From Rhodospirillales bacterium (GTDB lineage Bacteria > Pseudomonadota > Alphaproteobacteria > Rhodospirillales > Casp-alpha2): a stretch of DNA of 64,000 nt. The position numbers were made by a program, and so were the translations under genes. Positions 5,109-50,821 of the stretch are shown in pieces. Under the pieces are notes generated by a model that ran no database searches, was not told the DNA's origin, and saw only the letters and a program-made list of their open reading frames with translations. The stretch is from the NCBI GenBank assembly GCA_018662225.1, contig JABJGO010000069.1, forward strand, positions 1-64,000, written 5' to 3'. Numbering within the stretch: the stretch's first letter is position 1; every line of letters begins with the position of its first letter.

Positions 5109-5504
5109 ATGGCGAATGACGGAACGAACGGAGATGTAGCCAGTGACAAAGTGCTGGCGCGGAAAGCAGTCGTGCAGGGAGAATGGGTCTTCGAGGAAGG
5201 TAACAAGGCGGACGCCGCTTATCTTGTTGTTGAGGGTAGAATTGAAATATTTCGTGGCGAGGGCAATAATCAGATAAGCATCGCCATGCTGGGCCGAGGG
5301 GAAATATTTGGCGAACTGTCATTGATTGATGGCAAGCCACGTACGGCATCGGCCCGCGCCACATGCGAAACTCAGTTGATGATCATCAAGCCGGAAGATC
5401 TGGAATCTCGCCTGGATCAGTTAGAGAAAACCGACAAGGTATTGCGCCGTTTGATCAAGATCTTCGTTGAAAGATTAAGGGGCCAACATAGCCACTCGGT
5501 CTAA
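5109..5504 (+). CDS. Small stand-alone cyclic nucleotide-binding domain protein
   Basis: 131 aa, essentially one CNB beta-roll: EGNKADAAYLVVEGRIEIF, then GRGEIFGELSLIDGKPRTASARA, which is the phosphate-binding cassette (FGE-L-xx-G-RTAS). There is no HTH, kinase or channel domain, so it must work through a partner. It is 36 nt after the PLP-enzyme gene and 42 nt before the SH3-like gene, likely one operon. Whether it binds cAMP, cGMP or nothing is not visible. Confidence 0.8.
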   Translation: MANDGTNGDVASDKVLARKAVVQGEWVFEEGNKADAAYLVVEGRIEIFRGEGNNQISIAMLGRGEIFGELSLIDGKPRTASARATCETQLMIIKPEDLESRLDQLEKTDKVLRRLIKIFVERLRGQHSHSV

Positions 5505-5546
5505 CGCCAGAAACGATACCAAATATGATACCAGAGGGCATTTTCA

Positions 5547-6473
5547 ATGGCACAGGCCACGAACAAAGCTGAGCGTATCGCGTGGTTGATACGGTATGTG
5601 ATGTTCCCGGCTGCGCTTGCCATCGTTCTGGCGGCTGTTGTGGGCGGGGTATTTGTATATCGCGATACGAAAATGCAGGAATTCCTCAGTGGCGCGCAAT
5701 CCGTTTCTGATCCAGCGAAAACATCCGAAGCCTCACCCGCTACCCCGTCGCTGCCAATGCCTCGCGCGGTTCAGGTGAATTCCTATGCGCCGGGCCGGGA
5801 ATACCCACTGGCTGAATGGCAGGTGGTGGACGACGCTGGCGGCTTTGTCGATGCTGTATTCGTCAATGGTGAATTGATGGGGATGGATGAGATCATTCGG
5901 GTCGGGTCCGGTGATGTTATTCACATGACCGGTTGGGCTGGGCATCGGTTGCTCGGCATGCGGTTTCCTGAAGTTCTGTTCTCTGTGTGCGGTAAAATCG
6001 TTGGGGGTGTGACCGTATCTGGCGTGCGGCCCGATGTTGCAGACTCCGTTCATCCCAACCTCATGCATTCAGGTTGGGAGGCGGACCTGTTTGCGTCGGA
6101 CTTGCCACGGTGTGAAGAACCCGCCATCAGTGTATGGGGCAGGCCGCCTGTAGGGTGGACGTTACGTCCTGTTATTGGCACCTGGCGGTTTATATTTCAG
6201 GCCTCGTCTGAAATCGCACCGGTCACTATTATTCATGAAGAATCAATCATCCGCCCGGAAGATGTCAAAAAAACAGAAACCCAACGGCTTAGTATTCATC
6301 ATGGTAATACGCCTCTGCACCAATGTGCCAATACCAAGTGTGATGTGGTCATTAATCTCGCCCAAGGACCATTGAGCGCTGTTATTGTCGAGGAAATGGA
6401 TGGTTGGGTGTTACTGCAGTCGGCCAAAGGTTCCGGGTGGGTAATGTCATCAGCATTCCGGGTTTTACCCTGA
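5547..6473 (+). CDS. Membrane-anchored protein with C-terminal SH3-like domain, function unknown
   Basis: 308 aa. One N-terminal membrane helix (about residues 17-38) is followed by a Ser/Pro-rich linker, a middle domain I do not recognise (about 70-220), and a C-terminal bacterial SH3-like module ending in GWVLLQSAKGSGWVMSSAFRVLP. The topology should place the soluble part in the periplasm, where SH3b modules often contact cell-wall material. It is the last gene of the presumed three-gene plus-strand unit. Confidence 0.65.
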   Translation: MAQATNKAERIAWLIRYVMFPAALAIVLAAVVGGVFVYRDTKMQEFLSGAQSVSDPAKTSEASPATPSLPMPRAVQVNSYAPGREYPLAEWQVVDDAGGFVDAVFVNGELMGMDEIIRVGSGDVIHMTGWAGHRLLGMRFPEVLFSVCGKIVGGVTVSGVRPDVADSVHPNLMHSGWEADLFASDLPRCEEPAISVWGRPPVGWTLRPVIGTWRFIFQASSEIAPVTIIHEESIIRPEDVKKTETQRLSIHHGNTPLHQCANTKCDVVINLAQGPLSAVIVEEMDGWVLLQSAKGSGWVMSSAFRVLP

Positions 6474-6722
6474 TGGCGGACGATTTCTGAGGCGTACAGC
6501 AGGATACGGCAATCTTGGGTACTTGTTCTGAATACCTACCCCTTTAGGATTGTTGTTGCGGGCGCCTTTGCTGGCATATATTGAGTGGGCTTATTGTAAT
6601 TCTATGGGGCTTCCTATGACCTGGTGTGATGAACTTTGCGCGCGTGTTGATTATACGCCCTAGAACTCTCCTGAAAATACAGGGCCTATTATCAACAATT
6701 TGCGTACGAAGGAGATTCTCAA

Positions 6723-8096
6723 ATGGAACGAACACATAACTGGACAACGGAACAATGGGTAAAGGCTGATCAAGCCCACCACATGCACCCGTTCACGGAT
6801 TACGCCGATCATGCCGTGAATGGCAGCCGTATTATTACCGAGGCCGATGGTGTCTTTTTGACCGATTCAGACGGTAACAAGATTCTCGATGGTATGGCCG
6901 GGCTGTGGTGCACGAACGTGGGTTATGGCCGCAAAGAACTGGCCGATGTAGCCCACAAGCAGATGATGCAACTGCCATTCTACAATACGTTCTTCAACAC
7001 ATCCACCATGCCCCCCATCGAATTGGCAGGCGTGTTGGCTGAGATTACCCCCGAAGGCTTGAATCACGCTTTTTATGCTTCGTCCGGGTCGGAAGCCAAT
7101 GACACCATCGTGCGGATGGTGCGTCATTATTGGAATATCAAAGGCAAGCCAAACAAGAAGACCTTCATCAGCCGTGAATACGCCTATCACGGTACCACCA
7201 TGGCCGCCGCCAGCCTGGGCGGCATGTCGGGTATGCATAGGCAGGCCGATTTACCGTTGCCGGGTTTTGAGCATGTGATGCCACCCTATTGGTACGTGTT
7301 TGGCGGCGATATGAGCCCTGAAGAGTTCGGTCTGGCCGCCGCCAAGGCCGTTGAAGACAAGATCGTTGAACTGGGCGCTGACAATGTGGCGGCCTTTATT
7401 GGCGAGCCAATTCAGGGTGCCGGTGCTGTGATTATTCCGCCTGAAACATACTGGCCGGAAATTCAGCGTATCTGTGAAAAATACGACATTCTGCTGATTG
7501 CTGATGAAGTGATTTGTGGATTTGGTCGTACCGGTAACTGGTTTGGATCCGACCATTTCAACATCAAGCCAGACCTGATGCCGATCGCCAAGGGGCTTAC
7601 ATCCGGGTACTTGCCGCTGTCGGCCGTTATGACCACCGATGATGTGAAAGAAACCCTTGGTCGCGGTGGTGATTTTGAGCACGGTTTCACTTATTCCGGG
7701 CACCCGGTGGCATGTGCTGTGGCGCTGGCCAATATTGAGATCATCAAGCGCGAGAATCTGGTGGAAAAAGTTCATAGCGATACCGGGCCCTATCTGGGTG
7801 AGCGCCTTGCCGAACTGGAAGACCACCCCCTTGTGGGCGAGGTCCGCCACCTTGGCCTGATTGCATCCATTGAGCTGGCCAAAAACAAAGAAACGCGTGA
7901 GCTGTTTGATCCCAGCCTTAGCGTCGGCCCCACATGCAAAAACCACTGTTCCGATAACGGGTTGGTCATGCGAGCGACCCGTGATGTCATGGTCATGTCA
8001 CCGCCGCTGATTATTTCACGTGACGAAATTGACATGCTGGTGGACCGGGCGCGTAAGGCGCTTGATGCAACGGCGGTTGATTTTGGTGTGATGTAG
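6723..8096 (+). CDS. Class III aminotransferase (omega-amino acid/putrescine:pyruvate type)
   Basis: 457 aa. It has the class III core LLIADEVICGFGRTG (Asp contacting the PLP ring N), PIAKGLTSGYLPLSAV with the Schiff-base Lys, and GFTYSGHPVACAVALANIE. The N-terminal HPFTDYADH and GLWCTNVGYGR are typical of the beta-alanine/putrescine/taurine:pyruvate aminotransferase branch. The substrate is therefore a terminal amine rather than an alpha-amino acid. It is a single gene with a good Shine-Dalgarno (AAGGAG, 6709-6714) and a strong terminator after it. The preceding 249-base gap shows no clear operator. Confidence 0.87.
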   Translation: MERTHNWTTEQWVKADQAHHMHPFTDYADHAVNGSRIITEADGVFLTDSDGNKILDGMAGLWCTNVGYGRKELADVAHKQMMQLPFYNTFFNTSTMPPIELAGVLAEITPEGLNHAFYASSGSEANDTIVRMVRHYWNIKGKPNKKTFISREYAYHGTTMAAASLGGMSGMHRQADLPLPGFEHVMPPYWYVFGGDMSPEEFGLAAAKAVEDKIVELGADNVAAFIGEPIQGAGAVIIPPETYWPEIQRICEKYDILLIADEVICGFGRTGNWFGSDHFNIKPDLMPIAKGLTSGYLPLSAVMTTDDVKETLGRGGDFEHGFTYSGHPVACAVALANIEIIKRENLVEKVHSDTGPYLGERLAELEDHPLVGEVRHLGLIASIELAKNKETRELFDPSLSVGPTCKNHCSDNGLVMRATRDVMVMSPPLIISRDEIDMLVDRARKALDATAVDFGVM

Positions 8097-49321: not shown

Positions 49322-49873
49322 TTAGTCCCGCCACTTGATGGAACATCCGATGCTGGCGGTTTGTTCTGCCGGTCCGCGCCCGGTTTCGGCAATCTGAATC
49401 ATCGCTTCACGCAACTCTCGGGTTGATGAGGGGGCCGAGAAATCAGAGCCAGACGAATCGAACCTGCCTCGGTACTGCAATTGCATATCCCGGTTAAAGC
49501 CAAAGAAATCAGGGGTGCAAATAGCGTCATAGGCCTGTGCCGTGGCTTGCGGCTCGTCATAGAGATAGGGGAATCCGAACCCGTTTTTCGACGCAAACAG
49601 TTGCATGTTCTCAAAGGAATCCGCCGGATAGGTGGTGGCATCATTGGCGCTGATGGCGGCGACGCCGATCCCGGCAGACTGGATTTCGGCGCAATCGGCA
49701 ACGAGCTTTCCAATGATGGCCTTCACATAGGGGCAGTGATTGCACAAAAAAATTACGAGTGTACCCTTCTCTCCCTGTATATCTTGCAGAGAATAGAATT
49801 TTCCATCAACGCTAAGTAATTGAAAATCAACGGCTTTCCAGCCAAATTCACAGACTGTTGTCGTCATTGCCAT
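49322..49873 (-). CDS. Thioredoxin-like/AhpC-TSA family redoxin (reconstituted 5' end)
   Basis: 183 aa. It carries CNHCPYVKA (Cys44, Cys47), the redox pair of this thioredoxin-like family, and FGFNRDMQLQYRGRFD further on. The first 46 codons are AT-rich with unlike codon choice, while the rest matches the host. The shift falls exactly at the CAC codon for His46 (49736-49738), the same point where the fragment at 50663-50821 breaks off. I infer that an insert supplied a new 5' end (see the mobile element entry). GAGG precedes the ATG. Confidence 0.88.
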   Translation of the reverse strand: MAMTTTVCEFGWKAVDFQLLSVDGKFYSLQDIQGEKGTLVIFLCNHCPYVKAIIGKLVADCAEIQSAGIGVAAISANDATTYPADSFENMQLFASKNGFGFPYLYDEPQATAQAYDAICTPDFFGFNRDMQLQYRGRFDSSGSDFSAPSSTRELREAMIQIAETGRGPAEQTASIGCSIKWRD

Positions 49874-49930
49874 TTTTGACCTCGATTGATTTTGCGATTA
49901 TCTAATCCATTGAAATATAACAAAACTCAA

Positions 49931-49954
49931 AAATTAAGATAGTATACAAATGTG
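49931..49954 (-). repeat. Internal copy of the 24-bp direct repeat
   Basis: Plus-strand AAATTAAGATAGTATACAAA followed by TGTG. It is 22/24 identical to 50660-50683, differing at its tenth and twenty-first positions, and in the same orientation. The core GTATAC is a palindrome. It separates module A (membrane protein gene) from module B (new redoxin 5' end). Confidence 0.8.
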
Positions 49955-50003
49955 GAGTGGTGGATAACAAAGATCCTATACAGTTTTACGCAGAGGTCCT
50001 TTT

Positions 50004-50618
50004 TTAACGCTTTTCTAAAACAGGTCCACACACTCGCTCAATCTCTGCCACTGCATCAATGATTCTTTGGCGGAATGCATCTAGATTGTCTCCGTCTGAG
50101 TGGTCCCAAATAACCTCTTGATGTCGTTGCCTAAGGTTAACGGGATAATCGTGCTCACCAGCATGATTGATCAACATGCTGACAGCACTTGATATCTGAT
50201 TCCGAACAACAGTAAATGTTTGTAGTGCTTCTTGAGCTTCCTCACCAAAGTATGCGCGAAACATAACTTTTGTTTTGCGAAGACGGGCAAATAATTCGTC
50301 GCCTTCAGATAAACGTGAAACACGCGAATAATATGAGTCATTGCGACGTTGAATATTTTCTTCCTCATTTTCGCGGTTTGGGCGATCTTCTCCTTCTCCA
50401 CCCCAAGAAGCGGGATGACGAGACCACTCAATAAGGCCCTCCAGTTCATATGCTAAAACTAGAGCCTCTTCAGCTAATTCGATTTTCTTTTTGCCCAATA
50501 AGTGGGTTCGCCAAGAAGTCAGGCCTTTAAAAGCTGGATAGGCAACCGCAACCACAGCAATGGCTTGAATGATAGAAGTGATTTCAACAATCGTTATGGT
50601 GCAAAGCCAATTCCACAT
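50004..50618 (-). CDS. Orphan single-span membrane protein inside the insert, function unknown
   Basis: 204 aa. One N-terminal membrane helix (about 9-33, IVEITSIIQAIAVVAVAYPAF) is followed by a charged, helical cytoplasmic part with KKKIELAEEALVLAYELEGL and RVSRLSEGDELFARLRKTK. It has an excellent Shine-Dalgarno (AAGGAG) and AT-rich codon use unlike its neighbours, consistent with transfer. It looks like a widespread accessory family without assigned function. It is the only gene of module A; a role in defence or maintenance is speculation. Confidence 0.7.
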   Translation of the reverse strand: MWNWLCTITIVEITSIIQAIAVVAVAYPAFKGLTSWRTHLLGKKKIELAEEALVLAYELEGLIEWSRHPASWGGEGEDRPNRENEEENIQRRNDSYYSRVSRLSEGDELFARLRKTKVMFRAYFGEEAQEALQTFTVVRNQISSAVSMLINHAGEHDYPVNLRQRHQEVIWDHSDGDNLDAFRQRIIDAVAEIERVCGPVLEKR

Positions 50619-50636
50619 CGTGAAAACTCCTTAAAT

Positions 50637-50683
50637 TACTGAAAATACTGAAAACTGTTAAATTAAGAAAGTATACAAACGTG
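50637..50683 (-). repeat. Outer copy of the 24-bp direct repeat, with adjacent 9-bp tandem repeat
   Basis: AAATTAAGAAAGTATACAAA then CGTG at 50660-50683 forms the right boundary of the insert; its last three bases are the CAC codon of the split redoxin. Just inside, TACTGAAAA occurs twice in tandem (50637-50654) in the leader of the membrane protein gene. Confidence 0.8.
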
Positions 50684-50821
50684 CTTACACATGAACATTA
50701 TCAGCGTGCCATTGTCGCCAGTCACATCGGCCAGACTGTACGATTTCCCATCCACGCCGGGCAGAGTGAAATCAGGCGCTTTCCAGCCAAAATCACATAC
50801 TGGTGTATCGAGAGCGGGCAT
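50663..50821 (-). pseudogene. Severed 5' fragment of the redoxin gene
   Basis: Reading left from ATG 50821, the first 47 codons give a clear redoxin N-terminus (MPALDTPVCDFGWKAPDF, then VDGKSYSLADV, ending MFMCKH). It aligns without gaps to the intact protein at 49322-49873 (FGWKA-DF, VDGK-YSL-D, C-H). After the His codon the frame runs five codons into the insert repeat and stops at 50663. Codon use is host-like. It lacks the second active-site Cys partner region and most of the fold, so it is not functional. Confidence 0.85.

Follow-up and report, generated by a model that had tools for sequence, protein, structure and literature searches.

A redoxin gene split at its active-site codons by two probable small integrase-less cassettes in a Rhodospirillales bacterium

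In a Rhodospirillales bacterium (Casp-alpha2; GCA_018662225.1), a redoxin gene on the minus strand carried a 945-bp interruption, placed after the CKH codons and before those of CPY. The reading we favour, with somewhat better than even confidence, is that two integrase-less (CIME-like) cassettes entered in tandem at a specific redoxin site, between the C-x-H and C-P-Y codons, and replaced the N-terminus of the target. A second genome (G168, from a different family within the order) had an insert at the same base, sharing the left end and carrying a related passenger, and relatives carried uninterrupted genes; therefore site-specific integration, not the decay of a paralogue, is indicated, and the inserts are probably small mobile cassettes. 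The type rests on two examples, G168 and the window, which is the whole stretch analysed (64,000 nt, positions 1-64,000 of contig JABJGO010000069.1).

The native N-terminal fragment (50681-50821, minus strand, as are all features below) has 47 codons, the last four being ATG TGT AAG CAC, and the native 3' part (49322-49735) opens with TGC CCC TAT (CPYVKA...). When these flanks were rejoined without the insert, an in-frame CKHCPYVKA was obtained. The insert is composed of module A (729 bp, 49952-50680) and module B (216 bp, 49736-49951), both opening with R-TTTGTATACT-W-TCTTAATTT immediately 3' of a CAC (GTTTGTATACTTTCTTAATTT in A, ATTTGTATACTATCTTAATTT in B). The original prediction of a redoxin split at its active-site codons by two modules sharing a left end, with flanks that rejoin in frame, was thus borne out. 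The left ends of A (50657-50680, GTTTGTATACTTTCTTAATTTAAC) and B (49928-49951, ATTTGTATACTATCTTAATTTTTG) are direct repeats of each other; the repeat covers 33 bp at the two module starts, 729 bp apart and 85% identical, and the other direct-repeat family is formed by the two redoxin 5' ends, 945 bp apart. No other copy of the left-end 20-mer was found in the window genome with up to three mismatches allowed.

Behind its left end, module A carries a cargo ORF of 204 aa (50004-50618) and a 52-bp tail (49952-50003) ending in TCCAC. This tail might be a decayed redoxin 5' end of an older unit, but its alignment score with the redoxin start was equalled by 30 of 500 shuffles, so the resemblance is suggestive and not significant. 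In module B, the left end is followed by a short AT-rich leader and then by a substitute for the redoxin 5' coding end (49736-49873): a new ATG with 46 codons (GC 0.38), ending in TGC AAT CAC and continuing in frame into the 3' part of the native gene. TATACT in the module B left end also resembles a -10 hexamer, and TTGTTA lies 18 nt ahead of it. Reading of the native fragment through into the insert gave VCILS and then a stop. In the truncated fragments of the window (50681-50663) and of the joint at locus L164, read-through gave [VI]CIL with a stop within a few codons, which yields CxHxC instead of CxHC.

The GC content was 0.42 in module A, 0.34 in module B and 0.403 in the whole insert, against 0.53 in the window, and none of 1262 sampled 945-bp stretches of the window was as low as the insert. 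The predicted change from AT-rich to host-like composition at 49736 was found as well: GC3 was 0.33 in the substitute 5' part and 0.64 in the 3' part, and 0.57 in the native fragment. DNA identity to the sister genome (G001, a genus-mate) was 73% for the fragment, 69% for the 3' part and 59% for the substitute 5' end. Of 37 DNA comparisons with other redoxin loci, 32 placed the fragment nearer than the substitute end. Fragment and 3' part thus both have a native appearance, and the substitute 5' end is judged foreign because its DNA identity to the sister is 59% versus 73% for the fragment.

The sister had one uninterrupted redoxin between the same flanking genes as in the window. A redoxin match was present in 28 of the 48 family genomes searched, and the gene was uninterrupted in all 23 family loci besides the window in which the motif was readable (the sister and L125-L146), one of them with S in place of the first C of the motif; three further loci, incomplete or degraded at the motif, are outside the 23. 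In a class sample of 385 genomes, no further redoxin split of the window or G168 type was seen. A redoxin pseudogene in G603:C84 (L246, about 5300-6953) was broken farther downstream than the CNHC codons, by an AT-rich orphan ORF of 213 aa. In addition, contigs of two other genomes of the order stop in this region: two of G160 (C43 and C192; end of L161, start of L162) end at the redoxin CNHC codons, and G118:C357 (end of L163) ends about 10 bases from them.

In G168, the redoxin fragment ends in ATG TGC AAC CAC and is directly followed by ATTTGTATACTATAATTT. Its left joint, ...TGCAACCAC/ATTTGTATACTATAA, has the same codon and the same left end as the window, and the first 11 bases of the module A left end recur there except for G instead of A at base 1. 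The left joint was constant across three copies. The G168 insert, 1356 bp long, spans two contigs that would be adjacent by the identical 60-bp overlap of their ends, and it carries, in this order, an ORF for a 188-aa membrane protein, one for a homologue of the 204-aa cargo, and a replacement for the redoxin 5' end. At the right joint, ...TGCAACCAC/TGCCCCTAT, TGC AAC CAC is joined to TGC CCC TAT. The original prediction had suggested looking for the 204-aa family at redoxin genes elsewhere; the G168 homologue was identical to the window protein at 159 of 204 residues (78%; DNA 76%) and was its nearest homologue in the order. The substitute redoxin starts 15 bp after the cargo stop, therefore co-transcription of the two is probable in G168.

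Uninterrupted redoxins were found in five genus-mates of G168 and in two further relatives. The G168 fragment was closer than the substitute end to all five genus-mates by DNA, and in the wider set it was the closer one in 24 of 37 comparisons by DNA and 11 of 37 by amino acids; the composition of the substitute end was host-like, the same as that of the 3' part. The upstream fragment of G168 thus looks native, less clearly than that of the window. When 317 genomes of the order were scanned for TGYAANCAYRTTTGTATAC with up to two mismatches, many matches carried one or two, and exact matches occurred in two genomes only, the window genome and G168, both at the split redoxin. One base and one element end are therefore common to both insertions, which would be independent events, because uninterrupted relatives exist in each lineage.

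The 204-aa protein had no Pfam match above the curated cut-off, none in NCBIfam or PADLOC, no useful PDB match and no match among the phages or viral contigs searched. A single-sequence structure model was all helical at low confidence (mean pLDDT 52); this model and the sequence point to one N-terminal membrane segment followed by helices, and the passenger of module A is probably membrane-anchored. The plasmid search gave one weak match (29%), a distant homologue on Roseivivax plasmid NZ_CP090155.1 (L245, 4189-6273), with a tyrosine recombinase gene about 600 bp away. A homologue of about 50% identity in G273:C11 (L312, 5204-5821) sits between the terminator of a ribonucleotide-reductase-like gene and a gene of isochorismatase type, and the sequence ahead of it, GCATTTGTAGACTTCG, bears a weak resemblance to the left end; another of about 40% in G530:C73 (L237, 247-903) lies between the start of an antiporter-like gene and the end of a radical-SAM-like gene. 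The family is therefore read as a passenger not tied to redoxin, because these two homologues sit in other places.

The same data could be produced, though this is unlikely, if the cassette arose once and was spread by ordinary homologous recombination with no dedicated recombinase, donor DNA with a split redoxin crossing over in the active-site codons and in the upstream flank. Few codons of the gene are as conserved as those for CNHCPYVK, which would favour crossovers there; no recombinase is linked to the insert, and within the order the cargo has its closest homologue in the second redoxin insert. However, the left joint falls at the identical base in both genomes with only about 9 bp shared there, and the fragment upstream is clearly native-looking in the window, less clearly so in G168.

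As had been predicted, no recombinase was present: the insert encodes the 204-aa protein and the start of the redoxin and nothing else, and integration and transfer genes are absent. The window genome and G168 each encode several tyrosine recombinases, and besides the Xer type they have in common a pair of integrases of 420 and 418 aa (41% identical); no serine recombinase matching PF00239 was found in G168. It would fit these findings, and also the contigs of G160 and G118 that end at or near the redoxin codons as a mixed population would give, that the units are still active, depend for movement on a resident tyrosine recombinase acting in trans, and form a distinct sub-kilobase class of non-autonomous elements that stacks in catalytic codons. 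This is considered distinctly improbable. Integrases of such size are common, a similar one occurs in G171, and the recombinase contigs read showed no link of the shared pair to redoxin or to the left end, so the shared integrase is unsupported as the mover. The contig ends could reflect mixed filled and empty sites, but they can have other causes.

No integrase-bearing relative was found in viral contigs or among the recombinase contigs read. A scan of genome contigs with TTTGTATACTNTCTTAA gave at least 118 loci, and those fetched among the matches listed were unrelated to this redoxin family or the cargo. All 11 pattern matches in viral contigs were without redoxin context, and the redoxin-like proteins of viral contigs were distant and complete.

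Tandem redoxin paralogues, separated by an inserted orphan gene and with truncation of the upstream one, would account for two redoxin N-termini in a row, but are very improbable and were ruled out by the single-copy loci of the sister and the family; the shift in composition and identity at the CAC also speaks against them, as does G168, where joint, left end and cargo recur. An origin as integron gene cassettes, with an integron integrase as the inserting enzyme, can practically be dismissed, since despite the short units, single orientation and repeated boundary sequences there is no attC-like foldable end (fold z-scores of 0.8 to 1.5, no better than shuffles) and the joints are without a GTTRRRY core.

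For the tandem integrase-less cassettes favoured here, the fixed left end (R-TTTGTATACT...) would join the host CAC with the passenger region behind it, and the right end would encode the substitute start and the first 46 or so redoxin codons, joining the native TGC-CCC. Integration would cut off the native N-terminus yet keep a complete chimeric redoxin, and would regenerate the target, so that the next cassette could enter there. The joint of an excised circle would be TGCAATCAC/GTTTGTATAC for the window and TGCAACCAC/ATTTGTATAC for G168. The joins would have been made by a site-specific recombinase, and the units may descend from larger elements after loss of the integrase, as in CIMEs. Against this reading, the outer joints share only a short sequence (TGYAANCAC, partly dictated by coding), and the internal joint only CAC. 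The host-like composition of the G168 substitute end, the 11 of 37 amino-acid comparisons for its fragment and the two-contig span of its insert also weigh against it, as do the missing recombinase and the non-significant redoxin likeness of the module A tail.

The original prediction had proposed serial site-specific integration with one module repairing the target and another carrying cargo. The insertion, the foreign 5' end and the second example agree with it, but the assignment of repair to one module and of cargo to the other was not upheld: left end, cargo and substitute 5' end form one unit in G168, therefore the window is best read as two stacked units. The upstream unit A would have integrated first and since lost its redoxin end, and the downstream unit B is best read as one without cargo.

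It had also been stated that no element of this design was described, which is too strong, since related designs are on record in ICE SXT at prfC, dusA elements and the accretion of CIMEs (PMC8409611, PMC5704250). The dusA-specific elements (e.g. IMEVchUSA3) and SXT at prfC replace the N-terminus of the target gene and supply a promoter along with the new one (PMC8409611). The redoxin units likewise lie within a conserved gene, towards its 5' end, and give it a new in-frame start and N-terminus; in the window and in G168 alike, the right end encodes a substitute 5' end that keeps the target gene in frame. Those elements, however, carry their own integrase, excision factor and mobilisation functions and insert near the start (PMC8409611), whereas the redoxin units are of 216-1356 bp, have no recombinase and are joined about 46 codons in, at active-site codons.

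Tandem accretion of integrase-less CIMEs with ICEs or IMEs has been described (PMC5704250). The redoxin units resemble CIMEs in being integrase-less and in tandem stacking in a regenerated site, and their joints may correspond to attachment sites; they differ in being very small, and any descent from an ICE or IME or mobilisation in cis would be putative. In Dehalococcoides, several ssrA islands stand in tandem at one conserved gene, many with an integration module and some apparently without (PMC3146451). Stacking at one gene is common to both systems, as is, for some of the islands, the apparent lack of an integration module; the islands differ in being targeted to the 3' end of an RNA gene, with a direct repeat of 20 bp, and 16 have a serine recombinase (PMC3146451). 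The novelty of the redoxin inserts is thus that of a very small form of a known integrative-element type.

A wider generalization would be that recombinase-less sub-kilobase cassettes of one or two genes move in trans into catalytic codons, stack there, and are retained because without the substitute front the host gene would be unreadable; this is put forward as a tentative and rather doubtful extension. The proposed integration site lies inside a coding active-site motif, and annotation would call the result a gene fragment beside an ordinary redoxin. If the reading is right, it shows how small an integrative element can get, being left with a left end, a passenger and a replacement gene front, and that so reduced an element still occurs, precisely integrated, in different families. 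It would also show how passenger genes can become bound to a conserved redox gene.
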